Assembly (NCBI RefSeq): GCF_017916365.1
Contig: NZ_JAFMSU010000002.1
Coordinates: forward strand, 1,054,001 to 1,118,000
Source of the DNA: Rufibacter roseolus
Lineage (GTDB): Bacteria; Bacteroidota; Bacteroidia; Cytophagales; Hymenobacteraceae
Length of the DNA: 64,000 nucleotides
Direction: 5' to 3'
Both the position numbers and the translations under genes were made by a program. Position 1 is the stretch's first letter; the number at the start of each line of letters is the position of its first letter. The notes under the pieces were generated by a model. The model did no database searches. It was not told the origin of the DNA and was given only the letters and a program-made list of their open reading frames with translations. Below, piece after piece: positions 5,463-52,740 of this stretch.

Positions 5463-5471
5463 GGCTGTAGG

Positions 5472-20024: not shown

Positions 20025-20032
20025 TATTTTTG
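20025..20032 (+). promoter_or_regulatory. putative -7 box (TATTTTTG)
   Basis: Matches the Bacteroidota TAnnTTTG consensus 47 bases before the DUF1573 start codon. No clear -33 box was found, so this is a weak call. Confidence 0.4.
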
Positions 20033-20078
20033 TTAGCTCACTTAACGGGCCATAAAACTGATACAAACTTAAAGAATT

Positions 20079-20870
20079 ATGAAAAAAATCTATCTACTGC
20101 TCGCTTTTGCCCTGGTAGTACTTACCCAAGGAATGGTTTCGGCCCAGGGAGTGCTTACCTTCGAGAAAGACACCCATGATTTTGGCAATGTTACCGAGGG
20201 CGTACAAGCTATCTACGAATTTAAATTCAAGAATACTGGAAATCAGCCGGTAGTAATTTCGCATGTACAGGCTTCCTGCGGATGTACTACCCCAGAATGG
20301 CCCAAAGAGGCAATCTTACCAGGCAAAACCGGCGTGGTGAAAGCAGGTTACAACAGCGCTGGCCGTCCTGGTGCTTTCAGCAAAACGTTGACTATTACCT
20401 CAAACGGCAATCCAGAGACCCAGTCTCTTTTCATCAAAGGAACCGTAGTTCCTAAAGATGCGGCGCCCGCCCCTGCAGCCCACACCGCTGAGGAAGTGGC
20501 CAAATCCCCAAAGATCGACGTGGCCAGCTCCACCTATGATTTCGGGAAATTGGAAAAAGGCCAGAAAGCCACCGCTAAATTCACCATCAAAAACACTGGT
20601 AAAACAGACCTGAATGTGACCGGAATTCAGACTGCCTGCAACTGTGTGGCCTTCAAAATGAGCCCTTCTGTAGTAAAAGCAGGACAATCTGCAAAGTTGG
20701 AACTTACCTATAGTCCTCAGGTGTTACAGGACAGAATTGAGACAGTAACGCTTGTTTCAAACGACATCACCGGCGCTACGCCTGCCTTTACCCTAAAGGC
20801 CAAAGTGGTAGATAGCCTGGCAAAGCAAAGTTCAGTTAAGGTTAACAAGGCGTCAGTGCCTTTTAAATAG
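20079..20870 (+). CDS. two-domain DUF1573 secreted protein
   Basis: A 263-aa exported protein with a signal peptide (MKKIYLLLAFALVVLTQGMVSA-Q) and two Ig-like DUF1573 domains. Domain one has FEKDTHDFGNVTEG, QASCGCTTPEWP and YNSAGRPGAFSK; domain two, after an Ala/Pro linker near residue 135, has STYDFGKLEKGQ and TACNCVAF, where the usual CGCT is CNCV. It is a paralogue of the one-domain protein at 2553-3008. A likely periplasmic or surface structural role is inferred; none is proven. It is followed by a terminator at 20899. Confidence 0.92.
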   Translation: MKKIYLLLAFALVVLTQGMVSAQGVLTFEKDTHDFGNVTEGVQAIYEFKFKNTGNQPVVISHVQASCGCTTPEWPKEAILPGKTGVVKAGYNSAGRPGAFSKTLTITSNGNPETQSLFIKGTVVPKDAAPAPAAHTAEEVAKSPKIDVASSTYDFGKLEKGQKATAKFTIKNTGKTDLNVTGIQTACNCVAFKMSPSVVKAGQSAKLELTYSPQVLQDRIETVTLVSNDITGATPAFTLKAKVVDSLAKQSSVKVNKASVPFK

Positions 20871-20898
20871 TTTTTTCATAGTTTTATTTTGTACTAAT

Positions 20899-20927
20899 GG
20901 CAGTAACAGTGTTGCTGCCTTTTTTTA
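20899..20927 (+). terminator. rho-independent terminator
   Basis: ggcagtaac-agt-gttgctgcc makes a nine-pair stem (one G:U) followed by seven Ts. It terminates the DUF1573 gene. Confidence 0.85.
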
Positions 20928-21059
20928 TGCCCGTTTCAATACTATACAGCCTTTTAGTACTAAAATTCAGCCTTACAGCATAACAATCAGGACAACTGTA
21001 GGTCTGCTTTCTGTCCAGAATAACTAATATTATATTCTAGCAAAGAACAGAGTTAAAAC

Positions 21060-27688: not shown

Positions 27689-27807
27689 AAAGGCAGAACT
27701 GCCGGGGTAAAACTCAGTTTGGGGTTCTAGTTAAGCAAAATACTCAAATATACCGGTATGGTTCTTTGATTTTAAGACGAAAATATAGGATAGCACACAG
27801 GTTCTTT

Positions 27808-27815
27808 TATCTTTG
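27808..27815 (+). promoter_or_regulatory. putative -7 box (TATCTTTG) of the ECF sigma gene
   Basis: Matches TAnnTTTG and lies 17 bases before ATG 27832, which supports a start at 27832 or 27838 instead of the upstream ORF start at 27766. Confidence 0.5.
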
Positions 27816-27831
27816 CAGTACACTTAACCTT

Positions 27832-28422
27832 ATGCATATGGGTACACCTCTACTTACCCAAGACCAGGAGTTGCACACCCTGCTCAAAACCAACGAGACG
27901 CTTTTCATGGAGACGTTGTTCAAGCAGTACTATACCCTGCTTTGTAGAACGGCTGTGCGTTTCACCAAAGACACCGAGGCAGCCGAGGACTTAGTGCAAG
28001 AAGTCTTCTGCAAAATCTGGCAGAACCGCGAGGTACTGGAAATCAGCACCTCCTACAAAGCGTACCTTGTCAGATCGGTTACAAACCAGGCCTTGAACTA
28101 CATTGAGAAGCAGAAACGTCTGGTCCTGTCTGAGGACACCTCTCCTTTTGAATCTACCCTATCTGCCAACACTACCATGGAACTGCTGGCAGGCACGGAG
28201 ATGGAGGGGCGCATCCAACAGGCCCTGAACGAGTTACCGCCGCAGTGCCGCCTCATCTTTGAAATGAGCCGTTTTGAGGAGCTTACCTACAAAGAAATTG
28301 CCGAAACGCTGGATCTTTCCCCTAAAACGGTGGAAAACCAGATGGGAAAAGCCTTACGCATTCTGCGGGAACATCTGCTATTTCTATATATAACCACTTC
28401 ATTATTTGCCACTTTAGCGTAG
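27832..28422 (+). CDS. ECF RNA polymerase sigma factor, FecI-like
   Basis: A 196-aa sigma-70 family ECF factor. Region 2 contains ARDxVQEVF-like EDLVQEVFCKIWQNRE, and region 4 contains LPPQCRLIFEMSRFEELTYKEIAETLDLSPKTVENQMGKAL, the Bacteroidota RpoE/FecI pattern. Start ATGs at 27832 and 27838 are both possible; the upstream extension lies over the promoter. Followed by FecR, a DUF2807 lipoprotein and an STN TonB receptor, it should be held inactive by FecR until the receptor binds its ligand, then direct transcription of the receptor operon. Confidence 0.92.
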   Translation: MHMGTPLLTQDQELHTLLKTNETLFMETLFKQYYTLLCRTAVRFTKDTEAAEDLVQEVFCKIWQNREVLEISTSYKAYLVRSVTNQALNYIEKQKRLVLSEDTSPFESTLSANTTMELLAGTEMEGRIQQALNELPPQCRLIFEMSRFEELTYKEIAETLDLSPKTVENQMGKALRILREHLLFLYITTSLFATLA

Positions 28423-28520
28423 GCAAGCCAAACTTTTACATTAGCTTAAAAATATTATCGTGGAGATAGGGGTATCGCCCCTATTATCTGTCATATAGAC
28501 ACCACGACACTAACACTACC

Positions 28521-29594
28521 ATGACACAAACAAAACCTGATACCCACGAGAACCCTGAATGGGTCTTGATGGCTAAAGCTTTGCGGGGGGAACTGTCAGA
28601 TCAAGAACAGCTGGAGTTTTCTGCCTGGCTGAACGAGGATGACGCCCACCTGCAACAATGGACCGAAGCCCTGGAAGTCTGGGACGAAGTAGGTACCGAA
28701 CAGAACAACACCTTCAACCCAGATGCAGAGCTAGCCTGGAACAAACTGAGCGCCAAATTAGACTTCCCCACTGAAACGAAAGTAATCCCGCTCATCCCTG
28801 AGGAGACGCACGCCTATGAGGCATCCCAGGAAACCGTAGAGAGACAGCTTTTCCCCTGGAATACCCTGTACAAGTATGCCGCGGCCTTCGTACTGGCTGC
28901 TGGATTGGCTTGGATAGGGTATTTGCAGTTTAACACAGACCCGGTGGCTTGGACTCAGGTGGCCACCGCCGCGGGCCAGAGACAGTTGATCAATCTGCCA
29001 GACAGCAGCCAGGTCACGCTTAATGAGAATTCCGTCCTGCGTTACCACACTGCCTTCAATGGCGCTGAGCGCAGGGTTGAACTGGTGGGTGAAGGATTCT
29101 TTGAGGTCCGCAAAAACCCTGAACAGCCTTTCATTGTGAAAAGCGGCAACGCCCAGACAAAAGTTTTGGGCACTTCTTTCAATGTGCGGGCAAACAAAAA
29201 CGAGGCCGATGTCTCTGTGGCGGTAGTTACCGGCAAAGTGGCTTTCTCTTCTCTGAAAGACAACAAGCAGGTGTTGCTCACCCCTGGTTACACCGGGCAC
29301 CTATCTGCCAATGGCCAGCTAGACCGAAAAGAAACCTTGCAATCTTCTTCCAGCACCTGGCGGGCACTGGTGTTCCAGAACACCTCCATCAAGGCCGTAG
29401 CCGACCAATTGGAAGCGTACTTCAAAGTTTCTGTGGAAGTTCCTAACCAGAGCCTGCAGGCGTGCACCTTCACTGGCACGTTTGAGAACCCTGAACTGGA
29501 TGAGATTCTAACGGTCTTGAAAGCTTCTTCAGACCTTAAGGTAAACCAGACCGCCGCCGGTTCCTATACCCTGGATGGCGCAGGTTGCAAGTAA
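28521..29594 (+). CDS. FecR-family anti-sigma factor
   Basis: A 357-aa inner-membrane protein. An N-terminal cytoplasmic region (residues 1-115) has the acidic anti-sigma segment, a membrane helix spans about 118-137, and the periplasmic FecR domain follows (LPDSSQVTLNENSVLRY, GEGFFEVRKNPEQPFIVKSGNAQTKVLGTSFNVRA). The C-terminal part (TSIKAVADQLEAYFKVSVEVPN, FENPELDEILTVLK) resembles the STN-interacting DUF4974 domain. It transmits the signal from the TonB receptor to the upstream sigma factor. It overlaps the next gene by 20 bases if the ATG at 29575 is used. Confidence 0.93.
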   Translation: MTQTKPDTHENPEWVLMAKALRGELSDQEQLEFSAWLNEDDAHLQQWTEALEVWDEVGTEQNNTFNPDAELAWNKLSAKLDFPTETKVIPLIPEETHAYEASQETVERQLFPWNTLYKYAAAFVLAAGLAWIGYLQFNTDPVAWTQVATAAGQRQLINLPDSSQVTLNENSVLRYHTAFNGAERRVELVGEGFFEVRKNPEQPFIVKSGNAQTKVLGTSFNVRANKNEADVSVAVVTGKVAFSSLKDNKQVLLTPGYTGHLSANGQLDRKETLQSSSSTWRALVFQNTSIKAVADQLEAYFKVSVEVPNQSLQACTFTGTFENPELDEILTVLKASSDLKVNQTAAGSYTLDGAGCK

Positions 29595-30360
29595 TAGCTT
29601 TCACCTGCCCAGAATTGTGAAATCAACTATTCGTGCAAAAGGAATCTACTCCCTTTTGGTTTGCTTTTACGTCTTCGTTTTTACCTCCTGTGACATTTTG
29701 GGCACTGGCCCGTGCCAGAAAGGAACCGGCGAGACGAAAACAGAAGCAAGGGATGTAGCTTCTTTTAAGGCTGTAGACATGCGGATCGGCGGAAACGTGC
29801 ATGTTTCCGCCGGATCTAAAGTGTCGGTGAGCGTACAAAGTTTCGCCAACCTGCTCCCAGAGATCATGACCGAGGTGGAAGGAAACACCCTGGTCATTAG
29901 ATCTGAATCCTGCCTTGATTACGCAGACGAAGAAACCAACATATTCATTACCCTGCCGGACATAACAGGGGCGGAGCTTAAAAGCTCTGGGCAGATGCGC
30001 ATCCAAACGGTGCCTTCTTCTGGTTTGTTGGCTATCCATTTAGCAGGGTCGGGTTCCATCAGGTACATTGGCAGTGCAGACCGCATCAATGTCCAGAACT
30101 CTGGTTCCGGCATTGTAGACCTGGAAGGCTTTGTCAATAACCTGGAAACCACCCTCACCGGCTCTGGCAGCATACAAGGGTATTTCCTGCATGCAGACAC
30201 GGCTAAAACCAAAACCACCGGTTCTGGTTTTCAGCAGATCTGGGTAGATAAGACCCTGGATGCCACCGTCACCGGAAGCGGAAATATCTACTACCGGGGC
30301 TATCCGCACCTGATTTCCACCTTCACCTCCGGAAGCGGAAAAGTAATCAATGACAACTAA
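29575..30360 (+). CDS. DUF2807 (head GIN domain) lipoprotein
   Basis: A 261-aa protein whose hydrophobic N-terminus ends in a lipobox (VFTSC). The rest is a DUF2807 right-handed beta-helix-like domain: FKAVDMRIGGNVHVSAGSK, LKSSGQMRI, HLAGSGSIRY, TLTGSGSIQGYF and TSGSGKVIND, showing repeated GSG turns. Its role is unknown; relatives are surface or outer-membrane proteins. The only in-frame ATG (29575) overlaps fecR by 20 bases; an alternative GTG at 29617 would give a shorter signal. Its place between fecR and the receptor suggests a part in the same surface system. Confidence 0.85.
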   Translation: MAQVASNSFHLPRIVKSTIRAKGIYSLLVCFYVFVFTSCDILGTGPCQKGTGETKTEARDVASFKAVDMRIGGNVHVSAGSKVSVSVQSFANLLPEIMTEVEGNTLVIRSESCLDYADEETNIFITLPDITGAELKSSGQMRIQTVPSSGLLAIHLAGSGSIRYIGSADRINVQNSGSGIVDLEGFVNNLETTLTGSGSIQGYFLHADTAKTKTTGSGFQQIWVDKTLDATVTGSGNIYYRGYPHLISTFTSGSGKVINDN

Positions 30361-30404
30361 AAAGCGGCTGCCTAAGGCTTTTCCTTGGGCAGCCGCTTTT
30401 TTTC
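30358..30404 (+). terminator. rho-independent terminator
   Basis: aaaagcggctgcc and ggcagccgctttt pair across a 13-base segment, followed by Ts. The left arm includes the last bases of the DUF2807 stop, so it ends that operon before the receptor gene. Confidence 0.88.
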
Positions 30405-30410
30405 TCCTCT

Positions 30411-30528
30411 CCTATTCAAATCCTATTCAAATCTCACTTTCAGATCCGGCAAGTACCTAATTGGTAATTGCTGCCCAAAGGCAAATGCTCGTTTTTAGGT
30501 TTATTTTTGAAAATCAGGCTCTAAAAAG
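30411..30528. repeat. 11-bp tandem duplication and a palindrome copy
   Basis: cctattcaaat occurs twice in tandem (30411-30432). A dispersed palindrome copy (gtttttaggt...aggctctaaaaag) lies at 30491-30528. The rest of 30405-30716 is AT-rich and should hold the receptor promoter, but no confident box was found. Confidence 0.5.
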
Positions 30529-30716
30529 ATTTAAGGTAGACAATGTTTTTCCCTTCTATTTCCAAAAATAGACCATAAACCAATTATAAGCCAGAAAGAA
30601 AGGCACTTATTAACTATATTTTAATTATAGTATTTTGTAAATATTCTTGAAATGTGGAAATTAGCGATAAAGTACATTTCCATTGCAGACCTTCCTGAAC
30701 TTTCAAAATACTGGCT

Positions 30717-33383
30717 TTGCTTAGACATCTACCCATATTTCTATGCGCCATATTCCTGATCCTTTCTTCCCCGAGGTCAGTAGCGCAGAATTTGCCGGCG
30801 GAGGTCTCCGTTTCATTTAATTACCAAGGTAAACCACTGGACCAGGTGCTTCAGGATCTGCAAAAGCGTTATTCCTTGAATTTCTCCTACAGCAACAGCC
30901 AACTGCCGCTCAACACCCCTATTACTTGCGCGGCCAATTCCCTTGGTTTAGAAAAAGCGCTGCAAACCTTATGCAGATGTGCCGATCTTTACTTTCAGAT
31001 TATAGGAGAGCAGATTGTTTTAAAGCCCAGAAATGCCGTCGCTAGTTCCTCCAGCCCCTTACCAGTCTATACCCAAACCATAAGGGGCACCGTCATTGAT
31101 GCAGGGTTGAGAACCCCTTTGATTGGAGCAACGGTTATGCTTCTTTCCGTAGAGCCCAAAAAGGCAGTGAGTACGGGCATAGATGGCACCTTTACGCTAG
31201 AGAAAATTCCCATAGGAAGACACTTCCTTAAGGTTACCTATCTGGGTTACAAAGAAGGCGAGATCTCCAACGTGATGGTGGTGTCTGGAAAGGAAACAAT
31301 CGTGCAGGTACAACTGGAGGAAAGCTTTATTCAGCAGGCCGAGGTGGTAGTGGTGGCAGAACGGGACAAAACGCTGCCCCAGAACCTTCTTATCTCCTCC
31401 AGCGTGCACACGCTTAGAACAGAGGAAATCAATCGGTTTGCCGGGTCCCGCCAGGATCCCAGCCGCATGGCGGCCAATTACGCCGGAGTCTCCAGCGCCT
31501 CTGACCAACGCAATGACCTTATCGTAAGGGGTAATTCTCCTTTGGGCGTTCTCTGGCGCCTGGAAGGCGTTGAAATCCCTAACCCCAACCACTTCACCTT
31601 CACTCCTAACACTGGTGGGGCCTTTAGCATGCTCAACAACAACCTGTTGGCCAACTCAGACTTCCTGACCGGCGCCTTCCCGGCCGAATACGGGAACCGG
31701 ATAGGAGCAGTAATGGATGTGCGCCTGCGGGAGGGAAACAACAAGAAAGTAGAGAATACCATCCAGGTGGGCCTGAACGGAATGGAGGTTGTTACCGAAG
31801 GACCACTGGTGAAGAAATGGGGTGGATCTTTTCTGGGCAGCATGCGGCTGTTCACCTTCCGGCCGCTGGAGAAGATTGGCGTAAGCATGGGCTACGAAGG
31901 GCTACCCAGGTACCAGGACGGCGCCTTTAAATTCGTGCTGCCAACCCCTAAAGCGGGCAAGTTTACGGCCTGGGGAATTGCGGGCAGTAGCAGCGTCACC
32001 ATCTATGACATAGACCCGGACACCACCACCTGGGGAAAGGTTAGGTACCGGCTTGAACCCACACTGTATAACCAGATGTACGCCTTTGGGGTGCATCATA
32101 CTTATTCTAACATTCCTAAAACAGTAACCGAGCTTATTATCTCTGCCTCTGGCAGCCAGGTGGAGGCCACCAGTATCGCAAATTACCGGAATCGTACCTC
32201 CAGGCTGTTTTATTACCTGCGCAACTTTGAGAAACAGCTGATTACCCGGTTTAATGTCACCCATAAGCCAAATCACCGGGTTCTTTTCAAAGGCGGCTTA
32301 ACTTGGCAGAAGATGTATTACAACAACCAGGAGATCATGTACCAGGACCAAAGGGATGTGTATGAGATTCCGCTGGATGCCAATGGCGCTGCCTCGCTTT
32401 TACAAGCCTATCTCCTATCTAAAATTTCCCTCACCAATCGTTTGGATTTACAGGCCGGGCTCTACAGCCAAAGGTTTTCTATTGGAGACAGAATATCAGT
32501 AGAACCCAGGCTATCTCTGGATTACTTTATCTCCGATGCCCAAAAGGTTTACCTCTCTGCCGGCTTGCACAGTCAAACCCAACCCTTGGTGTATTATGAA
32601 TACCGCTTCTTTTCACAGGAAAAGCCCGAATTCAACCAACCCTACAACCAACTGGACTTCACCAGAAGCCGCCAGGTAGTACTTGGCTATAACCAAAATA
32701 TCAATAACAGTTGGCGCTTGAAAGCCGAAACGTACTATCAATACCATTACAAAGTACCGGTTAGTAAGCGTGAAGGGGAAGAAGCTTTCTCCATGCTTAA
32801 TCTCGGCACCGATTATAGTTTTGTGACAGTTGATAGCGTGGTAAGTACCGGTACAGGCAAAAACTATGGGCTGGAACTAACGGCAGAACGGTTCCTCAAA
32901 AAAGGAATCTATGCTTTGGGCAATGTATCCTTTCTCAGGTCTTCCTTTACCGGTGGAGATGGCCAAAAAAGACCAACGGCATTCAGTATAGGTTTTATAT
33001 CTAATTTTTTGATTGGCAAGGAGTTCCATTTAGACCAAGCCAACCGGCACCATTTATCATTAGATCTAAGGGTAAATTATGCCGGCGGAAGAAGATATAT
33101 TCCCATTGATGAAATCAGAACCAAAAACGAGGAAACCGATAAGATTTACTACGACGTAGCCAATGCCTATCACCCAAGGTTAAGAAGATATTTCAGAACT
33201 GATCTAAGGCTATCTTACCAACTAAACACCCAGAAAACCACCCATTGGATTTTTGCCGCGGCAGATAACTTAACCAACCGTAAAAACGAACTGTATTATG
33301 GTTGGGACCTGGAACAGAATGAAGCCAAAACTTACTACCAATTGGGCATTTACCCCTACCTGGGCTATAGAGTTCAGTTCTAA
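30717..33383 (+). CDS. STN-domain TonB-dependent outer-membrane receptor
   Basis: An 888-aa receptor that must start at a non-ATG codon: the frame has a stop at 30696 and no ATG before the signal peptide, so TTG at 30717 is chosen (CTG 30711 possible). The signal peptide ends near SVAQ. An STN domain follows (NYQGKPLDQVLQDLQKRYSLNFSYSNSQLP), then a carboxypeptidase-regulatory-like domain (RGTVIDAGLRTPLIGATVML...), a plug (SRDP-like NYAGVSSASDQRNDLIVRGNSPLGVLWRLEGVEIPNPNHF) and a beta-barrel ending in aromatic LGYRVQF. The STN domain should contact FecR, making this the input of the sigma/FecR switch. The ligand is unknown. Confidence 0.93.
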   Translation: MLRHLPIFLCAIFLILSSPRSVAQNLPAEVSVSFNYQGKPLDQVLQDLQKRYSLNFSYSNSQLPLNTPITCAANSLGLEKALQTLCRCADLYFQIIGEQIVLKPRNAVASSSSPLPVYTQTIRGTVIDAGLRTPLIGATVMLLSVEPKKAVSTGIDGTFTLEKIPIGRHFLKVTYLGYKEGEISNVMVVSGKETIVQVQLEESFIQQAEVVVVAERDKTLPQNLLISSSVHTLRTEEINRFAGSRQDPSRMAANYAGVSSASDQRNDLIVRGNSPLGVLWRLEGVEIPNPNHFTFTPNTGGAFSMLNNNLLANSDFLTGAFPAEYGNRIGAVMDVRLREGNNKKVENTIQVGLNGMEVVTEGPLVKKWGGSFLGSMRLFTFRPLEKIGVSMGYEGLPRYQDGAFKFVLPTPKAGKFTAWGIAGSSSVTIYDIDPDTTTWGKVRYRLEPTLYNQMYAFGVHHTYSNIPKTVTELIISASGSQVEATSIANYRNRTSRLFYYLRNFEKQLITRFNVTHKPNHRVLFKGGLTWQKMYYNNQEIMYQDQRDVYEIPLDANGAASLLQAYLLSKISLTNRLDLQAGLYSQRFSIGDRISVEPRLSLDYFISDAQKVYLSAGLHSQTQPLVYYEYRFFSQEKPEFNQPYNQLDFTRSRQVVLGYNQNINNSWRLKAETYYQYHYKVPVSKREGEEAFSMLNLGTDYSFVTVDSVVSTGTGKNYGLELTAERFLKKGIYALGNVSFLRSSFTGGDGQKRPTAFSIGFISNFLIGKEFHLDQANRHHLSLDLRVNYAGGRRYIPIDEIRTKNEETDKIYYDVANAYHPRLRRYFRTDLRLSYQLNTQKTTHWIFAAADNLTNRKNELYYGWDLEQNEAKTYYQLGIYPYLGYRVQF

Positions 33384-33398: not shown

Positions 33399-34880
33399 TT
33401 ATTTTACATATAAGGCTGACCTCTTAATCCTTTCCAAAATAAATTCCCACAAATGCTCATAGGGAATGATTTCAATCTCGGCATAAGCATCACCAGGCGT
33501 GGGTGTTTTTTGCAATTTGTGGTATAAATAATGGCCTTTTTTATGGGTTGTAGAATATTCAAAATTTGACCTAACTAACACCGTTAAGAGCTTAAAGAAA
33601 ATACGGCTACGCTCGCTAAAACTGTCTTTAAAATGGTGTTGGGCATATTTTTTTAAAGAATCTACTCTATACTCCAAGGCTTCAAAATCAACAATTTCAA
33701 GGTAGTACATTACCTGAAGAATAAGAATGGCAACGTTGAATCCTTCTTTGTCTTTACTGTAAGATGGTGCGTTTTGCACCAAAATTTTCCATTTTAGAGG
33801 GCTTTCTTTCTGAGGGGCAATAAACTGCAAATAGGCTTCCAACAAGGTCCATCTTTCCTGCGCCAATTTGTTTATCTTCTTTATAAAAGGGTTTTCCTGT
33901 ACCTGGTGCAGCAACATATGTGCCACCTCATATTTCTTGGCGTGTATGGCTAATAAGGTATAGTTCTCCATGTAAGCGAACCAGTTATTGCTGGAAGTGG
34001 AGAATAAAGGAAGGTAAGTATTGGCCAGAATCAATCCTTCTTCCAATTTCTTGGCTCTTAGGTGGGCGTATACCTGAATAAATTTATTAAATCTTATATC
34101 TATACGGTTAGCTACAAACTTGTACTCCTGAAGCACCTTTTCTGACATGTTAGTTACCAGAACAATTTTGTCAAAATCACCGGTTAATTCATGCGACCAG
34201 ATAGATAGCCGGTAATAGTTATGAAATGTCTCAAAAGTGAGGGCTTGCTGCCATAATGATAACATTTTATCCAGGACTTCATCAATTTTTTTAAGGTAAT
34301 TTTTTCTTGCTACTACAGAGTTGCTTAGCTCAATATTAGCTTGCAAAAAAAGCAATTCAGACTCCTGGTCAGCAGTCACTTTAGGAGCTAACTCATTCAG
34401 TTGTTTAAGAGCTTTATAAAAGAATGTTTTCTCTTTTAAGTTAACACAAGACTGGAGAATAAGCCTTAAGCAAATTGAGGAAATATAATTAAAATCGTAT
34501 TCTACTGTTTTAGCCAATACCTGCTTTAAAAGCGGAAGGGCAATATCGTTACCTCCAGCATCCATCAACACCCTTGCCTGGTAAAACTTGGCTAAACAAT
34601 TCTGCTCTACAGAATGAGAAGCCGGCAATCCCTCTCTCCTATCATCCATGAGAAAAAGCTGATTCATTAACTTTTTTCTCAATCTTGATTTAATCATTTT
34701 CAAGCCATCTCTCTCATCATTATCTCCGTAAAGTATAGCTTTTGCTGATTCCTCATCTGTAATATTGCCTTTCACCACTTCCAGATAAAGTCGCTTCTCT
34801 TTGGAATTGTTCGTAAAAATCTGAGGAGAAATACCTCCTCTCTTTTCTATTATGCGTATAATTTTTTTCAGTTCCTCCAT
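33399..34880 (-). CDS. large helical-repeat (TPR-like) protein, unknown function
   Basis: A 493-aa, A+T-rich, lysine- and leucine-rich protein with no signal peptide or membrane helices, probably cytosolic. It is almost wholly alpha-helical with TPR-like spacing (for example ARVLMDAGGNDIALPLLKQVL and LEEGLILANTYLPLF). The N-terminal 70 residues contain a KSRLRKKLMNQLF basic segment. I recall similar proteins in Cytophagales beside small exported peptide genes, but know no function. It is divergent from the 75-aa peptide gene and its base composition differs from the sequences to its left. Confidence 0.78.
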   Translation of the reverse strand: MEELKKIIRIIEKRGGISPQIFTNNSKEKRLYLEVVKGNITDEESAKAILYGDNDERDGLKMIKSRLRKKLMNQLFLMDDRREGLPASHSVEQNCLAKFYQARVLMDAGGNDIALPLLKQVLAKTVEYDFNYISSICLRLILQSCVNLKEKTFFYKALKQLNELAPKVTADQESELLFLQANIELSNSVVARKNYLKKIDEVLDKMLSLWQQALTFETFHNYYRLSIWSHELTGDFDKIVLVTNMSEKVLQEYKFVANRIDIRFNKFIQVYAHLRAKKLEEGLILANTYLPLFSTSSNNWFAYMENYTLLAIHAKKYEVAHMLLHQVQENPFIKKINKLAQERWTLLEAYLQFIAPQKESPLKWKILVQNAPSYSKDKEGFNVAILILQVMYYLEIVDFEALEYRVDSLKKYAQHHFKDSFSERSRIFFKLLTVLVRSNFEYSTTHKKGHYLYHKLQKTPTPGDAYAEIEIIPYEHLWEFILERIKRSALYVK

Positions 34881-35060
34881 CTACTTAATTCAAGTGAATC
34901 TTATGATTATTAAGACCCTATTTTTTGAATAATTGCAATCTATCTATAAATCGTAAAATATATTTTGCTTTGAATCTTAAGGTTCTTTTAAGATCAAATA
35001 AGCTAAATACATTTATATTAAAAAGAACTTCTATGTTTATTCATATTTTTTATAATTTTT
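34881..35060. other. AT-rich divergent intergenic region
   Basis: Strongly A+T-rich stretch between the helical-repeat gene and the peptide gene. No gene is seen. It should contain the helical-repeat gene's promoter; no confident TAnnTTTG box in the right place was identified. Confidence 0.5.
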
Positions 35061-35100
35061 TTTATAGTTAATTAAAGGTTTATTGTTTCCTTTATTTCCG
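35061..35100 (+). promoter_or_regulatory. shared upstream element, copy 1
   Basis: tttatagtta (35061-35070), 15 other bases, then tttcc-ttt-atttccg (35086-35100). The same arrangement with identical 15-base spacing precedes the 88-aa peptide gene at 39754-39791. The peptide ATG is at 35149. This may be a promoter or regulator site common to the two genes. Confidence 0.6.
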
Positions 35101-35148
35101 GAGTGTCTTCAGCCTACATTTGTTTTATACTTTAATCCTAAAAACGTC

Positions 35149-35376
35149 ATGGTAGAATTACTTATCGCTCTGCTCTTACAACTCTCAGTTTTAACAGGAA
35201 ACAATCCTGCGGAAAAAAAAGAAAAAGATAGCAACAAAACCAATTCCACAACTTCTACTACCACCTCTACTTATACTACCCAGACAACCACCAGTACTAC
35301 AACTACAGGAGGTACTGGCACAGGTTCAGGGGAAACCGGTTATGGCGGATCCGGAACTTGGGATACCAGAGACTAA
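35149..35376 (+). CDS. 75-aa Thr/Gly-rich small peptide
   Basis: A hydrophobic N-terminus (residues 2-16, ELLIALLLQLSVLTG) is followed by a charged stretch (AEKKEKDSNK), a Ser/Thr tract (about 31-53), a Gly-rich tract (54-69) and the C-terminus WDTRD. The N-terminus could be a membrane anchor or secretion signal, giving a secreted or surface-tethered peptide. A frame opens at 35083 but those residues overlap the shared upstream element, so ATG 35149 is chosen. No family recognised. It lies upstream of an oligopeptide-type ABC transporter set. Confidence 0.62.
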   Translation: MVELLIALLLQLSVLTGNNPAEKKEKDSNKTNSTTSTTTSTYTTQTTTSTTTTGGTGTGSGETGYGGSGTWDTRD

Positions 35377-35502
35377 GTACTTCTTTACAGATATAAAAGA
35401 TAGATTAACCTCTATCTTTATGAGTTCAGTCATTGGGCTAAGGCTATTTGAGGCAAGTTTTGTAATATTGAGCGTGGCGTATGCCTGTACTTCTTGCTCT
35501 AT

Positions 35503-37224
35503 ATGAAAAAATACTGCGCAAAGAGCCTTAGCTTACTTTTTTTATGGCTTTCAGCTTGCTCTTCTCCCTCCAAGGAACCAACCATAAAAGTAAGGTTTGC
35601 CCAAGACCCGGAGTCATTGCACCCGTTAAGTTATGGCAATGCCCCTGCGCTTCAGATTCTCAATTATATCTACCAAAGCCTATTGACAGTTGATTTAGAG
35701 AACAACTCCATTCAACCGCTTTTGGCTGCAGACCTGCCCAGCATTAGGCGGGAAGATTCCCTTTCTTACTTTACGTTTACCATCAGGCCAGAGGCGCAGT
35801 GGGACAATGGCTCTCCAGTGACGGCACAGGACGTGGCGTTTTCCCTTAAGATGCTGCACAGCCCCTTATTAGACAATGAGCGGTGGCGGGGGCAATATGA
35901 TTTTATCAAAGACATTCAATTCTCAAAAAACAACCCTAAAACCTTCACCCTTATCTGCTCAGGATATACCCCTGAGATGAAATTGATGACGGGGGACTTT
36001 TTTGTGCTTCCAGCGCATCAGTTTGACCCGAACGGGATATTGGCTTCCGTTCCCTATGCGTTGATCAGGCAAAAATTTGACTCTCTGTCTAACACGGCCA
36101 CCTTTAAAGCCTTTGCCTCTACCATAAACCAGCCCGGTATGGCAAGGGATACAGCCCTGGTAAAAGGAAGTGGTCCATATATGCTCAACAAATGGAGCAC
36201 GGGCCAATCTCTGGTCTTAGAAAAAAAGAAAGCATGGTGGGGAAACAAGGCAATGGCCCAAGCTCCTGTGCTGAGAGCAAATCCCTCCCGCATCCTGTTT
36301 CAGGTTTTACCAGATAACGCTGCAGCCTTGCTGGCTTTGAAGTCTCAGGCCCTGGATGTCATGGACAATATCCCATTAGTCACCTTTCAGGAAATGAAAC
36401 GGGACGAAAAATACCAGCAGGTCTACAACTTCTATTCCCCTACCTCCTTTGATTTTGTTTATATGGGGGTAAACGGGCAGAATGCCAAACTGGAAAATCG
36501 ATTGACCAGGCAAGCTTTAGCTCATTTGCTTAATGTTCCTCAGATTATCTCATCTGTACAGGGCGGCCTAGCTACACCAACAGTGGGTTTGGTGCACCCC
36601 CAGGAAAAAAACTTCTATAACGCCGAACTGCCTTTGGTCAAGTATGACCAGGAGAAAGCCAGGGCTCTGTTGCAGGCGGCCGGTTGGCAGCAAACCTCCT
36701 CTGGATGGCAGCAAAAAATCAATGGCAGGCCACAAACCCTTACACTAGAGTTACTGTATAGGGCCGGAAATTCTGACTTTGAAAACATGAGTTTGCTTTT
36801 CCAGCAGAATGCTAAGTCTCTGGGGATACCGGTTACGCTTCAAGCGCTGGAAAGCAGCCAAATCAGTGAAAGGCTGGAGAGCAGGCAATTTGATGTTTAT
36901 TTAAGGACTTTAGTGGGAACCCCGTTCTCCTACAACCTTATTCCTATTCTGCACACCTCCAATGCCAATGAGGGCGGCGCCAATGTAACCGGATTTGGTA
37001 ACGCTGAAACTGACCTACTTCTAGAAAAGATTGCCGTGGAAGAACACACGGCAGAGAAAGCACTTTTACTTAAATCGCTGCAAAAAGCCATGCAGGAGGA
37101 AAGCAACCTTATCCCGCTTTACTTCCAGCAAAATAAAATTGCGGTGTCAAAAAAATTAGATTCTGTCATCATCTCTGGCTTGAAACCAGGTTATGATCTG
37201 ACCAAAGCTACCTTCAAGAAATAA
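35503..37224 (+). CDS. oligopeptide-type ABC transporter substrate-binding lipoprotein
   Basis: A 573-aa SBP family 5 protein. The signal ends in lipobox LSAC (LFLWLSACSS). Signature segments include VRFAQDPESLHPLSYGNAPALQI, FTIRPEAQWDNGSPVTAQDVAFSLK, GSGPYMLNKWSTGQSLVLEKKKAWWGN and the C-terminal ESNLIPLYFQQNKIAVSKKLD. It should bind peptides or nickel-type ligands in the periplasm for the two permeases directly downstream (spacing of six bases). A start at 35494 (TTG) is possible but ATG 35503 fits the signal. Confidence 0.92.
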   Translation: MKKYCAKSLSLLFLWLSACSSPSKEPTIKVRFAQDPESLHPLSYGNAPALQILNYIYQSLLTVDLENNSIQPLLAADLPSIRREDSLSYFTFTIRPEAQWDNGSPVTAQDVAFSLKMLHSPLLDNERWRGQYDFIKDIQFSKNNPKTFTLICSGYTPEMKLMTGDFFVLPAHQFDPNGILASVPYALIRQKFDSLSNTATFKAFASTINQPGMARDTALVKGSGPYMLNKWSTGQSLVLEKKKAWWGNKAMAQAPVLRANPSRILFQVLPDNAAALLALKSQALDVMDNIPLVTFQEMKRDEKYQQVYNFYSPTSFDFVYMGVNGQNAKLENRLTRQALAHLLNVPQIISSVQGGLATPTVGLVHPQEKNFYNAELPLVKYDQEKARALLQAAGWQQTSSGWQQKINGRPQTLTLELLYRAGNSDFENMSLLFQQNAKSLGIPVTLQALESSQISERLESRQFDVYLRTLVGTPFSYNLIPILHTSNANEGGANVTGFGNAETDLLLEKIAVEEHTAEKALLLKSLQKAMQEESNLIPLYFQQNKIAVSKKLDSVIISGLKPGYDLTKATFKK

Positions 37225-37230
37225 ACAGGG

Positions 37231-38586
37231 ATGGCATTGCGGAATGTAGCTTTTCAGGTACTGAAATTTGCCTTTTCGCTGTGGCTTACCGCCTCTATTG
37301 TGTTCATGATGGCTCGTTTGCTGCCGGCCGGCCATGGGCCCAAAGGAATGAATGAAATTGACCAGGCCACCTATGGTGCTGCGGATGCCGCTTCCCGAAG
37401 CAGCCTTAGAGCAGACTACCAAAGGAGAACTGGCCTGGACAAGCCACTCTTTTACTTTAAAGTAAAACTCCAGGGCCAGAGGTTAGCGGATCAGTTAAAA
37501 CCTTCCGCCGCCGACCAGCCTTGGGTCAACAAAGCAGTTTTAAGGCACGGCCTCCCGGAGGCCTCCAGATTCTACCACGTTTGGCAACAATGGCTACCCC
37601 AAGCACCTGGGCAAAAGAGCCCCCTGTTAAAAAAGTTACTCTACTGGACTTCTCTTGATGCCTCTCTTGACCGCAAATCCCTGGAAAAAGAAATAGCCAG
37701 TTTATTACGAGCATTACCAAAGGCAAACGCACGGCCGCTTCTCAACGCGTGGCAAAATTTGGTTGCCCAACCAGCCCCCTTTCTTTATTACCTTCCAACC
37801 TTGGAATGGCAAGGCCGAGACAATATCTACCACCATTGGCTAACCCAACTTCTGCATGGCAACCTTGGTACTTCTACCCAGGACTATGAACTGGTCACTA
37901 CCAAAATAAAGGAAAGCGCTGCCGTTACCATTGCTTTAGGGACGTTAGGGCTTACCGCTGCGCTTTTAGTTTCTTTCTTTGCCGGTCTTTACTTCACCAA
38001 GAATCCGGTTAGCACCTTCACTTTTCTATTAAGGCAATTTCTGTTTGTCCTTGACAGTATCCCTGCCTTTCTCATTGCCCTCTCTTTGTTAGGGGTATTT
38101 TTGCTGGTGGGCGGTTCTGTTTATCCTTCTTTGGAAACTGATGGTAACAATGGATTATGGGCTTCCATGGCTTCCCCTTCTATCTTGCTGGGGAGCCTTT
38201 GCGTGTCACTACTGATAATACCGCACCTAACGCTGCAATTCCACCAGAGTCTAGTCTCCCAAACATCTGCCCTGTACCAACGCACCGCCCTGGCAAAAGG
38301 GCTTACTTTTCAAAAAACGCTCTTAAAACATCTTTTACCCAATGCCCTGCTTCCTAGCATTACCTTATTGAGCGAAGTAATCATTGGTCTCATGGCTGGT
38401 ATTCTAGTGGTGGAAATAACGTTTTCCTTACCTGGCATTGGCAGCCTGTTAACGCAATCCATTCTAACCCCAGATTACCCTGTACTGGTAGGGCTAACCC
38501 TCACACTCTTAACCTTCCGGTTGGTGGTAGTAGGGCTTACTGAGCTGGTGTACGGTTGGGTGGACCCAAGAATGAGAAACAACTAA
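37231..38586 (+). CDS. DppB-type ABC permease with large insertion
   Basis: A 451-aa permease, well above the usual 310-340 residues. TM1 spans about residues 8-28. The canonical LGLDKPL segment (residues 68-73) and the usual downstream partner YHHWLTQLLHGNLGTS (200-214) are present, but about 120 residues of hydrophilic, helix-rich sequence (about 77-198) lie between them, predicted to be periplasmic. The remaining helices and the EAA loop (YQRTALAKGLTFQKTLLKHLLPNALLPS) are normal. It pairs with the next permease. No ATPase gene follows. Confidence 0.9.
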   Translation: MALRNVAFQVLKFAFSLWLTASIVFMMARLLPAGHGPKGMNEIDQATYGAADAASRSSLRADYQRRTGLDKPLFYFKVKLQGQRLADQLKPSAADQPWVNKAVLRHGLPEASRFYHVWQQWLPQAPGQKSPLLKKLLYWTSLDASLDRKSLEKEIASLLRALPKANARPLLNAWQNLVAQPAPFLYYLPTLEWQGRDNIYHHWLTQLLHGNLGTSTQDYELVTTKIKESAAVTIALGTLGLTAALLVSFFAGLYFTKNPVSTFTFLLRQFLFVLDSIPAFLIALSLLGVFLLVGGSVYPSLETDGNNGLWASMASPSILLGSLCVSLLIIPHLTLQFHQSLVSQTSALYQRTALAKGLTFQKTLLKHLLPNALLPSITLLSEVIIGLMAGILVVEITFSLPGIGSLLTQSILTPDYPVLVGLTLTLLTFRLVVVGLTELVYGWVDPRMRNN

Positions 38587-38594
38587 AGGGCGTC

Positions 38595-39650
38595 ATGGGG
38601 AGATCTAAAACAAATAGCCCAATGTCTCTGGCGGAAAAGGCATCCTTAACCTGGTTGTTGATTTTCACGGTAGCGGCCCTTCTTTCCCAAATTCTGGTTT
38701 TACGGGGTGAGCAGGTGGTGGCCATACCAGAGCAAGCCTACCTCCCACCTTTCACCACGTTTGAACATCTCCTGGGCACCGACGGATTAGGAAGGGACGT
38801 TTTGTTTTACTTGTTTCTTAGTTGCCGCACAGCGTGGCTATTAGCCATTCCACCCTTAGTTCTTGCCTCTTTGATTGGCGTCGGCTTGGGGACTATAGCC
38901 GCTATAGCAGGAAATCACGGCTGGAGAATACCGTTGGTAAGGTTCTTTGCCTTGGTTTTACTTTTATCGGTTTACGGCATCTTGTATCCTGTCACACATT
39001 TTTGGCCTGTTTTTGCAGAATCAGCGCTAATCCGATGGATTTATTACGGCAGCAGTTTTCCTTTGCTCTACCTTCTGCTGACCAAAGAAGGTTTTCCTGC
39101 AAACTCCGGGAATAGGAGATACATCACATTAGCTGTGGATGATTGGCTACAGAAGATCATCAATATCTGGTCGGCGCTACCGAAGTTGCTTTTACTGTTG
39201 CTGCTTACGGCCTTCACCCCTTTTTCTTTGGGCACCCTGTTAGGTTGGATCTGTGCAACCTATTGGGTGCTACCAGCCCGCATTGCCAGAGCCAACGTTC
39301 TTCTGCTAAAAAAAGATTCTTACTATGAATCAGCCCTGGCATTGGGCATACCTTTCTACCGGGTTTTTACCAATTACCTTTTGCCTTCCTTAAAAGGACC
39401 CATTTTAACAAACTTCTGCTTTGCTGCTTCGGGATTGCTGGGGGTTGGTTCAACTTTGGCGTACCTGGGAATTGGCATTCCGGCGGATGTACCTTCCTGG
39501 GGTAAAATGCTAGCTAACGCGCGCTTCTCCATTGAAGCTTGGTGGCTTTTAGCTTTCCCGGCCACTTTTCTCCTCGCCAGTATCTTTAGCCTTCAGGTTT
39601 TAGGCAACAATATAACTGTCCAAAGTAGGCACAAATCTGTTACAAAATAG
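38595..39650 (+). CDS. DppC-type ABC permease with insertion
   Basis: A 351-aa permease. HLLGTDGLGRDVLFYLFLSCRTAWLL is the DppC signature, and the EAA loop is YESALALGIPFYRVFTNYLLPSLKGPI. Between TM2 and the core helices there is an extra hydrophobic segment (about residues 115-200) with additional membrane helices, absent from ordinary DppC. ATG 38595 is used; the frame opens upstream with TTG 38556, overlapping the first permease. The gene lies nine bases after it. The nucleotide-binding subunits must be encoded elsewhere if the transporter is active. Confidence 0.9.
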   Translation: MGRSKTNSPMSLAEKASLTWLLIFTVAALLSQILVLRGEQVVAIPEQAYLPPFTTFEHLLGTDGLGRDVLFYLFLSCRTAWLLAIPPLVLASLIGVGLGTIAAIAGNHGWRIPLVRFFALVLLLSVYGILYPVTHFWPVFAESALIRWIYYGSSFPLLYLLLTKEGFPANSGNRRYITLAVDDWLQKIINIWSALPKLLLLLLLTAFTPFSLGTLLGWICATYWVLPARIARANVLLLKKDSYYESALALGIPFYRVFTNYLLPSLKGPILTNFCFAASGLLGVGSTLAYLGIGIPADVPSWGKMLANARFSIEAWWLLAFPATFLLASIFSLQVLGNNITVQSRHKSVTK

Positions 39651-39753
39651 AGGTTTTTACGCCGAAATTTTTCCTGTCATTTAAGCTAAAGCAGGCTATT
39701 ATCAACCCTACACCACTTAATTACATTTTTTTGTCCTATTTCATAGGCTATAC

Positions 39754-39791
39754 TTTATAGTTATATAATCTGCAATAGTTTCCTATTTCCG
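39754..39791 (+). promoter_or_regulatory. shared upstream element, copy 2
   Basis: tttatagtta (39754-39763), 15 other bases, then tttcc-t-atttccg (39779-39791). Copy 1 precedes the 75-aa peptide gene. The two differ by two bases in the second block. The rest of 39651-39833 has no gene. Confidence 0.6.
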
Positions 39792-39833
39792 CAGCATGAG
39801 ACCCTCTATCATTGTACCATATTAAAAGAGCAA

Positions 39834-40100
39834 ATGAAGATGGACATCTTAGGGTTACGGAGTAAAAACAGTTCTCAGAACCAGGTAAGCCTGCAAGTAA
39901 GCTTACAGGCTTCTAAGAAGCCCGGTGGGCAAACCAGCCAAACTGTTTTTAGCAAAACCTCAATCTCTGCCTCTTCCTCTGCAAAAAATATAATGGAATT
40001 CTCTACCACTACCTTGTCTGAAGGCTTTGTTCTGGACGGATTCTTTTTAGGAACCTTTGAATTTGATTCCCTTACAGGACACCCTGGAATACGCTATTAG
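39834..40100 (+). CDS. 88-aa Ser/Gln-rich small peptide
   Basis: An 88-aa reading frame beginning ATGAAGATGGAC. It has a short basic N-terminus, a Ser/Gln/Thr-rich middle (about 12-50) with QVSLQVSLQAS, and a hydrophobic, aromatic C-terminus (FVLDGFFLGTFEFDSL, then TGHPGIRY). No signal peptide or membrane helix is evident and no family recognised; a modified or exported precursor peptide is possible. Support for coding comes from the shared upstream element and the clear terminator 75 bases after its stop. It is the last gene of the ABC-linked cluster. Confidence 0.55.
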   Translation: MKMDILGLRSKNSSQNQVSLQVSLQASKKPGGQTSQTVFSKTSISASSSAKNIMEFSTTTLSEGFVLDGFFLGTFEFDSLTGHPGIRY

Positions 40101-40174
40101 TTTTTGAGTTGTCTTCCGTAGCCCCCCATGCGGAAGTTAGTTTCTTGTTTCAGTTTTTTTGTTGTTTGTCTGTT

Positions 40175-40208
40175 TGCCTGCCGACTTGTCACCGGCAGGC
40201 ATTTTTTT
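40175..40208 (+). terminator. rho-independent terminator
   Basis: tgcctgccg and cggcaggca make a nine-pair stem with a seven-T tail, closing the peptide/ABC cluster. Confidence 0.9.
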
Positions 40209-51306: not shown

Positions 51307-52740
51307 TTGAAAGTAAAGCTAATCTTACCCGCCCTGGCAGAAGCAGAAAGCCCCTTTTGGCGGCCTATCAAGTATTCTTTGTTTCCGCCTTTGGGCTTAG
51401 CCACCCTGGCGGCCTACTTATCCCCCGATGATGAGGTGGACCTGCAGGACCAACACGTGGAAGAACTTAACCTCAACGATAACCCAGATCTGGTCATCAT
51501 TCAGGTATACATCACCAATGCCTACAGGTCTTACAAAATTGCGGACCATTACAGAAAGCAGGGTGCTTATGTGTTACTGGGCGGCCTTCATGTTACCTCC
51601 CTTCCAGACGAAGCTGCCCCGCACGCAGATACCATTTTCCTGGGGCCGGGAGAAGAAACGTTCCCCCAGTTCCTGAAGGACTTTAAGAACAAAAGCCCTA
51701 AGAAAGTCTATAGTTCAAGCATCAGAACGCTGGACAAGATTCCGCCCATCAGAAGGGATCTCATTAAACGAAGTAAATACCTGGTTCCTAATTCCATAGT
51801 GGTTACCAGGGGTTGCCCGCATCATTGCAGCTTCTGTTATAAAGACGCATTTTTTGAAGGAGGTAAAGGTTTTTACACCCAGATAGTGGACGATGCTCTG
51901 GCGGAGATCGATCGACTCCCAGGCCGTCACCTTTATTTTCTGGATGACCACTTGCTGGGTAACGCCAAATTCGCTGCTAACCTTTTTGAGGGCATGAAAG
52001 GCATGAACAGGGTATTTCAGGGAGCGGCTACCGTGGATTCTATTCTAAGGGGGAACCTGATTGAAAAAGCCGCCGAGGCTGGCTTAAGAAGTTTGTTTGT
52101 TGGCTTTGAAACGTTCTCGCCCGCTAACCTGAAGCAGAGTAATAAGAAACAGAACCTGGAGAAAGACTATCAGAAGGCCGTCAACAGGCTTCATTCCTTA
52201 GGGATCATGATCAACGGCAGCTTCGTTTTCGGGCTGGATGAAGATGACAAAGATGTTTTCAAGCGCACCGTAGACTGGGGCGTGAACAATGGGATCACCA
52301 CTTCTACCTACCACGTGCTAACGCCCTACCCCGGAACAAAGCTGTTCAAGGATATGGAACAACAAGGGCGGATCCTCACCAGGAACTGGGACTTGTATGA
52401 TACCAGAAACGTGGTCTATCAAACCACTAACCTAACCGCCGAGGATCTGAAGAATGGGTATGACTGGGCCTATAAGGAGTTTTATAGCTGGTCCAATATT
52501 TTCAAATCCAGCATGAACCACTCTTCGCACAAGCACAAGCTGAAACACTTCTTTTACACCGGCGGGTGGAAGAAGTTTGAACCGCTTTGGAATTTCTTGA
52601 TCAAAACAAACAACCTGAACAACATGCTGCCCCTTCTGGAATCAATCCTATCAAAAGTAAAGACAGGAGAAAAAGAAACAGGTGCTGACCCTGGTCTAAT
52701 CCAACTTGAAATTTTGCCTCAGTTACCAGCTGATGTATAA
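51307..52740 (+). CDS. B12-binding-type radical SAM protein
   Basis: A 477-aa radical SAM enzyme starting at TTG 51307. The N-terminal B12-binding-like domain (LGLATLAAYLSPDDEVDLQDQ, VLLGGLHVTSLPDEAAPHADTIFLGPGEE) lacks the DxHxxG cobalamin-ligand motif. The [4Fe-4S] motif is C170-x3-C174-x2-C177 (RGCPHHCSFCYKD), followed by YFLDDHLLGN and VGFETFSPANL. It is closest to the broad B12-binding radical SAM group with a C-terminal DUF4070-like region (HVLTPYPGTKLF). The substrate is unknown, and no adjacent precursor peptide is evident. Confidence 0.9.
   Translation: MKVKLILPALAEAESPFWRPIKYSLFPPLGLATLAAYLSPDDEVDLQDQHVEELNLNDNPDLVIIQVYITNAYRSYKIADHYRKQGAYVLLGGLHVTSLPDEAAPHADTIFLGPGEETFPQFLKDFKNKSPKKVYSSSIRTLDKIPPIRRDLIKRSKYLVPNSIVVTRGCPHHCSFCYKDAFFEGGKGFYTQIVDDALAEIDRLPGRHLYFLDDHLLGNAKFAANLFEGMKGMNRVFQGAATVDSILRGNLIEKAAEAGLRSLFVGFETFSPANLKQSNKKQNLEKDYQKAVNRLHSLGIMINGSFVFGLDEDDKDVFKRTVDWGVNNGITTSTYHVLTPYPGTKLFKDMEQQGRILTRNWDLYDTRNVVYQTTNLTAEDLKNGYDWAYKEFYSWSNIFKSSMNHSSHKHKLKHFFYTGGWKKFEPLWNFLIKTNNLNNMLPLLESILSKVKTGEKETGADPGLIQLEILPQLPADV

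Follow-up and report, generated by a model that had tools for sequence, protein, structure and literature searches.

A candidate peptide-pheromone module with a linked importer in Rufibacter roseolus and related Hymenobacteraceae

In the RRNPP systems of Bacillota (Rap-Phr, NprR-NprX, PlcR-PapR, AimR-AimP), a small precursor gene adjoins the gene of a receptor of about 500 aa that resembles a tetratricopeptide repeat (TPR) protein, an oligopeptide importer takes part and the precursor carries a short conserved core at or near its C-terminus. A 2023 survey treats oligopeptide signals as the mode of Bacillota and analyses complete Firmicutes genomes and viruses (PMC10075063). As described there, the systems are recognised by a propeptide of 10-100 aa, secretion by Sec (SignalP) or a PptAB-type route, a receptor of 250-500 aa, TPRs in the receptor and adjacent receptor and propeptide genes at −60 to 400 bp (PMC10075063). 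Here we describe a module of Gram-negative Bacteroidota at positions 33399-40208 of the window, by which we mean the whole stretch of 64,000 nucleotides analysed (Rufibacter roseolus contig NZ_JAFMSU010000002.1, positions 1,054,001-1,118,000; genome of 5.5 Mb). It consists of a helical-repeat gene (HEL), a divergent small gene (PEP1), genes for a substrate-binding protein (SBP) and two permeases, and a second small gene (PEP2). We read it as an RRNPP-like peptide-pheromone system with a probability of about 0.68, where we infer export, processing, import, binding, DNA contact and a regulon. The data below establish gene order and conservation, the repeats of the precursor, selection acting on its core, the fold resemblance of HEL and a motif shared within Rufibacter.

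Four of the five features named in the survey are found in the module, namely propeptide size, receptor length, TPRs as judged by fold and adjacency at 268 bp; with regard to the fifth, secretion, the PEP1-type N-terminus is hydrophobic and free of Lys and Arg in 75 of 79 loci. The best fold matches of HEL are RRNPP receptors as well. The module differs from the systems of Bacillota in its host, in the undetected sequence homology of the receptor in a PDB profile search, in importer genes that are encoded with the pair in one family, in a divergent arrangement of receptor and precursor, whose spacer in most loci measures about 270-380 bp, in the precursor N-terminus without basic residues, in cores present up to 18 times in Hymenobacter, and in a second small protein, PEP2, which carries the same upstream motif in Rufibacter. 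The linked importer, the long multicopy precursors and PEP2 go beyond the RRNPP account in the part of PMC10075063 available to us. Our literature search, with subscription journals and preprints mostly outside its coverage, found no description of such a system in Bacteroidota.

The features of the module are as follows:

33399..34880, minus strand: HEL, open reading frame (ORF) of 493 aa, all-helical and TPR-like, proposed intracellular peptide receptor and regulator
35065..35123, plus strand: cis-element before PEP1, TAGTTA-N15-TTTCCTTT-N21-TACATTTG, from an alignment of nine spacer sequences
35149..35376, plus strand: PEP1, 75-aa precursor with a hydrophobic N-terminus free of Lys and Arg, a Thr/Ser linker and the C-terminal core GGSGTWDTRD
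35344..35373, plus strand: proposed signal core GGSGTWDTRD, the final 10 codons of PEP1
35503..37224, plus strand: SBP, 573 aa when read from the ATG at 35503, lipoprotein of substrate-binding family 5, proposed to catch peptides
37231..38586, plus strand: permease B, 451 aa, DppB/OppB type (PF00528, E=1.6e-20)
38595..39650, plus strand: permease C, 351 aa, DppC/OppC type (PF00528, E=1.3e-15)
39758..39815, plus strand: the cis-element again, upstream of PEP2, TAGTTA-N15-TTTCCTATTTCC..TATCATTGT
39834..40100, plus strand: PEP2, 88 aa, C-terminus GTFEFDSLTGHPGIRY; the second ATG, at 39840, is an alternative start
40177..40208, plus strand: terminator-like GC-rich inverted repeat followed by T7, from reading the sequence

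A first-pass annotation had described a possible peptide/transporter module here, and all six of its ORFs are present at the positions and in the order that it gave. The terminator that it placed after PEP2 is likewise there, a GC-rich inverted repeat with T7 ending at about 40208; a shorter form of the repeat is one of the two sites in a terminator scan, where shuffled sequences lead one to expect 0.8. That observation of a module is correct, and it was understated.

Conservation of the module and the PEP1 precursor

The locus was compared in two sets. The 80-locus set is the best 80 of 462 loci and comes from Rufibacter, Sabulibacter, Adhaeribacter, Botryobacter, Pontibacter, Hymenobacter, Solirubrum and Rhodocytophaga, the last (L196 in our locus numbering) lying outside the family Hymenobacteraceae. 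The 35-locus set consists of 15 same-genus and 20 other-genus loci of the family, chosen by hand. The first set overlaps both the second and the 150 family genomes, and the counts are not additive. The order of HEL on the opposite strand, SBP, permease B and permease C is kept in 79 of the 80 loci; the co-occurrence of HEL with the transporter genes, on which the module idea had been made to depend, thus holds among these best 80 of 462. The sole exception (L231) is a second HEL locus in Hymenobacter piscis, which is without SBP. HEL faces SBP and both permeases in 15/15 same-genus and 20/20 other-genus loci of the 35-locus set. When neighbours within 10 kb on each side were clustered in the 80 loci, SBP and permease C were recovered in 79 loci each and permease B in 73, and the next gene reached 41/80. 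The gene arrangement at the module is not due to chance.

Counting any match with E <= 0.001, weak partial matches included, HEL is present in 146 of 150 family genomes, 86 of 291 genomes of the order and 26 of 395 in a sample of the phylum; no match was found in phage records. The closest relative by name, from Rufibacter hautae, is 94% identical. A close SBP (E <= 6e-101) occurs in 146/146 HEL-positive genomes of the family and in 0/4 HEL-negative ones, whose SBP matches are remote only (E 2e-10 to 6e-12). All four HEL-negative genomes belong to one genus, and a single loss may account for the absence.

A PEP1-type small ORF lies between HEL and SBP, on the SBP strand, in all 35 loci of the 35-locus set, with an ATG start available in 34 and a GTG start in L076. 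In the loci of conserved order it was found in 79/79, that is in 73 by an automatic rule and in six (L196, L198, L228, L233, L237, L263) by reading. The gap between HEL and PEP1 is 268 bp in the window, with a median of 351.5 bp and a range of 268-877 bp in 76 of the 80 loci; this set holds one wrongly picked ORF (L218), and the value of 877 belongs to the third of three tandem PEP1 copies in Adhaeribacter soli (L197), the first copy of which lies at 375 bp. In L196 the gap is 507 bp. Neither Pfam, NCBIfam nor PADLOC gave a match to PEP1 above cut-off.

The plan of the precursor is constant: a short hydrophobic N-terminus (e.g. MVELLIALLLQL), then a linker of low complexity, then a core that is rich in Gly, ends in Trp and has the form G-x-[GS]-x-W in 66/79 loci. 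The residues that follow the Trp vary by genus: WDTRD or close to it in Rufibacter, WDD-N in Adhaeribacter, WT, WV or WI in many Pontibacter and WG[DE]G in much of Hymenobacter. Precursor length ranges from 45 to 271 aa over the 79 loci, the long ones being repeat-rich precursors of Hymenobacter. Only in that genus is the core repeated within one ORF (22/79 loci, other Hymenobacter being single-copy), with 2, 3, 4, 5, 7, 9, 11 or 18 copies, some of them variant; HGTGGWGDGY and HGSGGWSG are among the units, and GGSGTWDTRD of the window PEP1 corresponds to the repeated unit. Multicopy pheromone precursors are known in yeast, where they are of the alpha-factor type. The Hymenobacter precursors resemble them in carrying tandem identical short peptides with variable spacers in one precursor, and the module differs in being bacterial and in having a single copy in the Rufibacter and Pontibacter loci examined.

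The codons of the repeats are informative. In L233 and L263 there are seven identical HGTGGWGDGY units each, and between units the proportion of synonymous differences (pS) is 0.64 and 0.53, with a proportion of nonsynonymous differences (pN) of 0. Because the units are identical as protein while 53-64% of the synonymous sites differ, the codon comparison indicates selection on the peptide rather than recent DNA duplication. The lower pS in L250 and L257 (0.16 and 0.37) means that some repeats are younger. In Rufibacter and Sabulibacter, pN/pS over 10 sequences, the pairs of which are not independent, is 0.13 for the last ten PEP1 codons, as compared to 3.2 and 0.97 when the C-terminal block is read in the two shifted frames; for the N-terminal block it is 0.41 in Rufibacter, with 0.67 and 3.4 in the shifted frames. 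Conservation of the peptides at the protein level, the other point on which the annotation had staked the module, is therefore borne out for the PEP1 core, and also for PEP2, with ten invariant C-terminal residues and relatives in other genera.

HEL fold, importer and shared element

HEL is 482-513 aa long in the 80-locus set, slightly more than 500 in some members. Against Pfam, NCBIfam and PADLOC it matches no family above cut-off; to Pfam TPR_12 there are weak matches from 4 of 28 members, with E 3e-4 at best. The AF2 model, built from an alignment of 81 sequences, is all helical, with a mean pLDDT of 88 and the shape of a TPR solenoid. In Foldseek this model finds MalT first (E 6.7e-4), NprR at rank 39 (E 0.03), Rap at 49 and NprR-NprX at 50; Foldseek alone is unspecific for TPR folds. 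Re-ranking of 963 chains with VIA-align put peptide-bound Rap proteins at ranks 1-6 (Z 17.1-15.8), with Z 17.1 both for 8rsv (rmsd 4.9, 291 residues aligned) and for 4gyo (rmsd 4.6, 286 aligned). NprR follows at rank 8 and AimR at rank 9, RRNPP receptors make up 11 of the first 20 rows and the best other row has Z 15.5; rows differing by up to 1 Z are tied, and helical repeats generally score high. The suggestion that HEL is a TPR-type cytosolic sensor fits a model that is most like the Rap, NprR and AimR pheromone receptors, and we regard the resemblance as suggestive, short of decisive. In the model the first 88 residues fold into four helices (pLDDT 69 when modelled alone), and their best fold match is a sigma-4 domain (Z 5.0, 3.1 A, 64 aligned), obtained from that weak model; DNA binding by this predicted domain is plausible. 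A SARP-like winged helix at this end is not supported, since the models are without strands. Matches to T6SS_VasJ, Dynein_light, New_glue, YxzE and SPO22 (E 6e-4, among HEL relatives) were below cut-off or single and were discarded.

The transporter genes are what they had been taken for: SBP matches SBP_bac_5 (PF00496, E=1.5e-56) and both permeases match BPD_transp_1 in Pfam. SBP has the sequence LSAC, which we take to be a lipobox. The permeases are indeed unusual, as was remarked at the outset. Specifically, about 200 residues separate the first two hydrophobic segments of permease B (28 to 232), and in permease C the Pfam domain is preceded by a long stretch. It is also true that no ATPase gene lies beside them. 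In the host genome (E <= 0.001), SBP is the only SBP_bac_5 protein, the four BPD permease domains form two pairs, one of them the module's, and the only oligo_HPY matches are two within one open frame of 618 codons on another contig, at about 497-499 kb (about 0.5 Mb along; L088, L089). This frame looks like two fused halves of an ATP-binding cassette (ABC) protein and presumably serves peptide import. With one SBP_bac_5 protein and one oligo_HPY frame in the genome, the importer could be complete even with no ATPase gene at the locus; that this ATPase works with the module permeases we infer from its being the only oligo_HPY frame found. By eye, the gene following the double-ABC frame reads like RNase R.

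As compared to Opp/Dpp importers, then, the same parts are all present in the genome, i.e. a family 5 SBP, two DppB- and DppC-type BPD permeases and an oligo_HPY-class ATPase. The differences are that the ATPase is unlinked and apparently fused, that permease B has a long extra loop in this genus, and that every match of SBP and the permeases to the NCBIfam Opp/Dpp equivalogs is far below cut-off.

PEP2 is a real gene of a new family. It has no match above cut-off in Pfam, NCBIfam or PADLOC. A single-sequence search found it in 13 of 150 family genomes, all of the same genus, and the end S-L-T-G-H-P-G-I-R-Y is invariant in 10 aligned sequences of the Rufibacter group; searching the order with a profile gave only two further matches, both weak (E 0.001 and 0.009). 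Divergent PEP2 genes in Pontibacter, with the signature TIDG-E/G-V...G-GI-IG-YFVG, were reached through the shared upstream element. A hidden Markov model (HMM) of PEP2, built from eight seeds (the window and seven of the same loci), found a member up to 700 bp downstream of permease C in 59/80 loci, where the seeds match by construction, and no match elsewhere among the small ORFs of these 80 loci. L191 is at least one miss of the HMM, as another record of the same species carries PEP2. Extra copies away from the module were seen in two Rufibacter-group genomes (L061:9462-9719 and L062:9940-10197); the L062 copy has the promoter motif and the L061 copy gave no strict match. The idea that PEP2 too is a signal is not borne out on present evidence, PEP2 being without a hydrophobic leader, and it is probably a co-regulated partner or output.

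The spacers between HEL and PEP1 in Rufibacter share little beyond TAGTTA-N15-TTTCCTTT and TTTGT before PEP1. The TACATTTG end of the element resembles the −7 box of Bacteroidota. The full motif has exactly two matches in the window, before PEP1 and before PEP2, and in the Rufibacter/Sabulibacter loci it stands before PEP1 in 9/9 and before PEP2 in 9/9. Elsewhere there are 8 matches in 3.2 million strand-bases of 79 loci. In other genera the motif precedes PEP1 in 20/70 loci and PEP2 in 22/69, and outside these positions 6 matches occur in 2.86 million strand-bases. Neither of two scrambled control patterns matched in either region. It is important to note that the motif was first recognised by eye, in Rufibacter, and its pattern loosened once other genera had been viewed, which makes these counts partly circular. 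A regulon scan of 800 kb of the host genome returned two full-motif matches only, both background-like. The shared element could serve HEL as an operator or be recognised as a promoter by a particular sigma factor.

HEL-peptide pairs outside the family

HEL relatives outside the family were read at 32 loci (L145-L176). The SBP/permease set stands beside HEL only in L145 and L156, and in L157 two permease genes lie about 5 kb from HEL. A peptide gene stands beside HEL with no transporter gene in the stretch read in, for example, L146, L153, L162, L171, L172 and L183. As a chance control, we counted small hydrophobic ORFs free of Lys, Arg and His in divergent position next to HEL genes and next to other genes; the threshold of 2.0 excludes the window PEP1, and a second run added a threshold of 1.5, a changed gene-length rule and the loci L183 and L184. 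At 2.0 such an ORF was found in the first run at 37/81 HEL genes versus 13/363 others in the 80-locus set and at 9/27 versus 5/151 outside the family, and in the second run at 38/81 versus 12/328 and 10/30 versus 3/108. At 1.5 the figures are 69/81 versus 24/328 and 17/30 versus 13/108. Such ORFs are enriched opposite HEL, and the Fisher values of this control are overstated by the shared ancestry of the loci. Of the outside-family matches, we take L147, L149 and L154 to be TatA-like and L155 to be NfeD-like.

In the distant family f44, HEL occurs in 21/23 genomes. The scan covered 29 of 30 loci (L283 excluded), mostly with 1.5 kb of flank, and several were partial or cut by contig ends. Divergent peptides ending in IDRxED, IDRRED or FDRxED were found at 6/29 HEL loci (L268, L270 with two, L271, L272 with two, L273, L275), and similar peptides that end differently occur at L294 and L296. 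No transporter linkage was seen in the four loci checked (L170, L171, L172, L183). Judged by these sequences, the pairing of receptor and peptide recurs with a different core, though not universally, and the HEL-peptide pair seems older than its linkage to the transporter. We lean, with some reserve, towards an intracellular-receptor pheromone system that predates Hymenobacteraceae, its importer linked chiefly in one family, with multicopy precursors in Hymenobacter and PEP2 as partner or output. The peptides would be clade-specific, given the Gly/Trp core in Hymenobacteraceae and Rhodocytophaga and [IF]DRxED in f44.

Proposed mechanism and rival explanations

We propose that PEP1 is a propeptide whose hydrophobic N-terminus would take it to or through the inner membrane. 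Proteases could then cut out about 8-10 residues around the core with its Gly residues and its Trp. This peptide would be carried into the cytoplasm by SBP and permeases B and C, with the unlinked double-ABC ATPase supplying the energy, and there it may bind the concave TPR surface of HEL. HEL would then switch its state and control transcription of at least PEP1 and PEP2 through GTTA-N15-TTTCCT at both promoters. If this is true, Bacteroidota own a peptide language, with precursor, receptor and importer in the culturable genera Rufibacter, Pontibacter and Hymenobacter. Two orphan gene families, HEL and PEP2, the former kept nearly throughout the family, would acquire a role. Since the core sequences are known, synthetic 10-residue peptides make the hypothesis testable.

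Several observations weigh against a pheromone system. In a Gram-negative cell the peptide must also pass the outer membrane. The PEP1 N-terminus is no textbook Sec signal, because residues 2-13 are free of Lys and Arg in 75/79 loci and contain an acidic residue in 45/79. On the receptor side, the Foldseek E-values are modest (best 6.7e-4 for MalT, 0.03 for NprR), TPR solenoids with other functions (LGN, Rpn6) reach Z 15, about 2 below the best Rap, and the sequence profile of HEL against PDB finds no RRNPP receptor, only a designed helical protein (E 0.0084). Fold comparison of the N-terminal domain gave no convincing match and none confirming DNA binding. Of the loci from other genera, 50/70 lack the strict motif before PEP1 and 47/69 lack it before PEP2, and only 3/69 have both. 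Outside the family, the full transporter set is beside HEL in just 2/32 loci, and at threshold 1.5 there is no peptide candidate for 13/30 HEL genes; as four of the 17 matches are TatA- or NfeD-like, plausible peptides amount to 13/30 at most. Finally, 21 of the 29 f44 loci scanned have no peptide of the kind described.

The envelope leads to one alternative, a cell-autonomous circuit in which the peptide is exported no further than the periplasm and, once trimmed, is taken up again by the cell that made it; it would then report the state of export or of the envelope, or time, and not cell density. The Gram-negative envelope and the joint encoding of importer and precursor suit such a circuit, and the retention of HEL in 146/150 genomes fits a housekeeping checkpoint as well as it fits communication. 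The residues following the core Trp, however, differ by genus, and a rise to 18 copies looks as if selection had favoured the output of free peptide; we consider this explanation rather unlikely. The same repeats bear on the reading that the transporter imports peptides as nutrients and has a local regulator, PEP1 being a small membrane accessory or a leader peptide and not a signal. SBP_bac_5 proteins with DppB/C-type permeases are commonly nutritional, and here SBP, the permeases and PEP1 stand in one row on one strand. Yet identical core repeats written with different codons are needless for a leader peptide or a membrane subunit, and distant loci keep the peptide gene beside HEL without a transporter gene in the stretch read, which leaves this reading little probability.

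Tandem cores also occur in ribosomally synthesized and post-translationally modified peptides (RiPPs). PEP1 could be a secreted antimicrobial or RiPP-like peptide, with the importer and HEL giving self-uptake or immunity; a core that is short and conserved, contains Trp, Asp and Gly and follows a leader agrees with this. No common maturase was seen, however, and besides HEL and the transporter no gene cluster within 10 kb occurs in more than 41/80 loci. HEL and the peptides are without a PADLOC match and without a Pfam or NCBIfam match above cut-off. HEL is nearly family-wide and the core nearly invariant in Rufibacter, unlike patchy bacteriocins, and we find this explanation of the module very improbable. 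A pheromone system remains our preferred reading.

A few observations concern the surroundings of the module. Just behind HEL, a set at window 27766-33383, which we take to be sigma factor, anti-sigma and TonB-dependent receptor genes (FecI/FecR/SusC-like), is kept in 14/15 same-genus loci, the 15th being cut by a contig end, and was not seen in the 20 other-genus loci. At window 51307-52740 lies a gene for a 477-aa protein, presumably of the B12-binding radical SAM type and unrelated to the module. The plasmid NZ_CP053909.1 of Hymenobacter sp. BRD128 (L343) has copies of HEL and SBP at 4157-5689 and 19350-21056, about 14 kb apart; its HEL adjoins an integrase gene, no recognisable peptide gene was seen beside it, and the copies are perhaps eavesdropping or decaying. 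In Pontibacter, the loci L180, L202, L216, L223 and L243 (L180 and L223 apparently from the same species) have 3-4 tandem HEL genes to a single peptide gene and a single transporter, an arrangement suggestive of receptor duplication or of diverging output.

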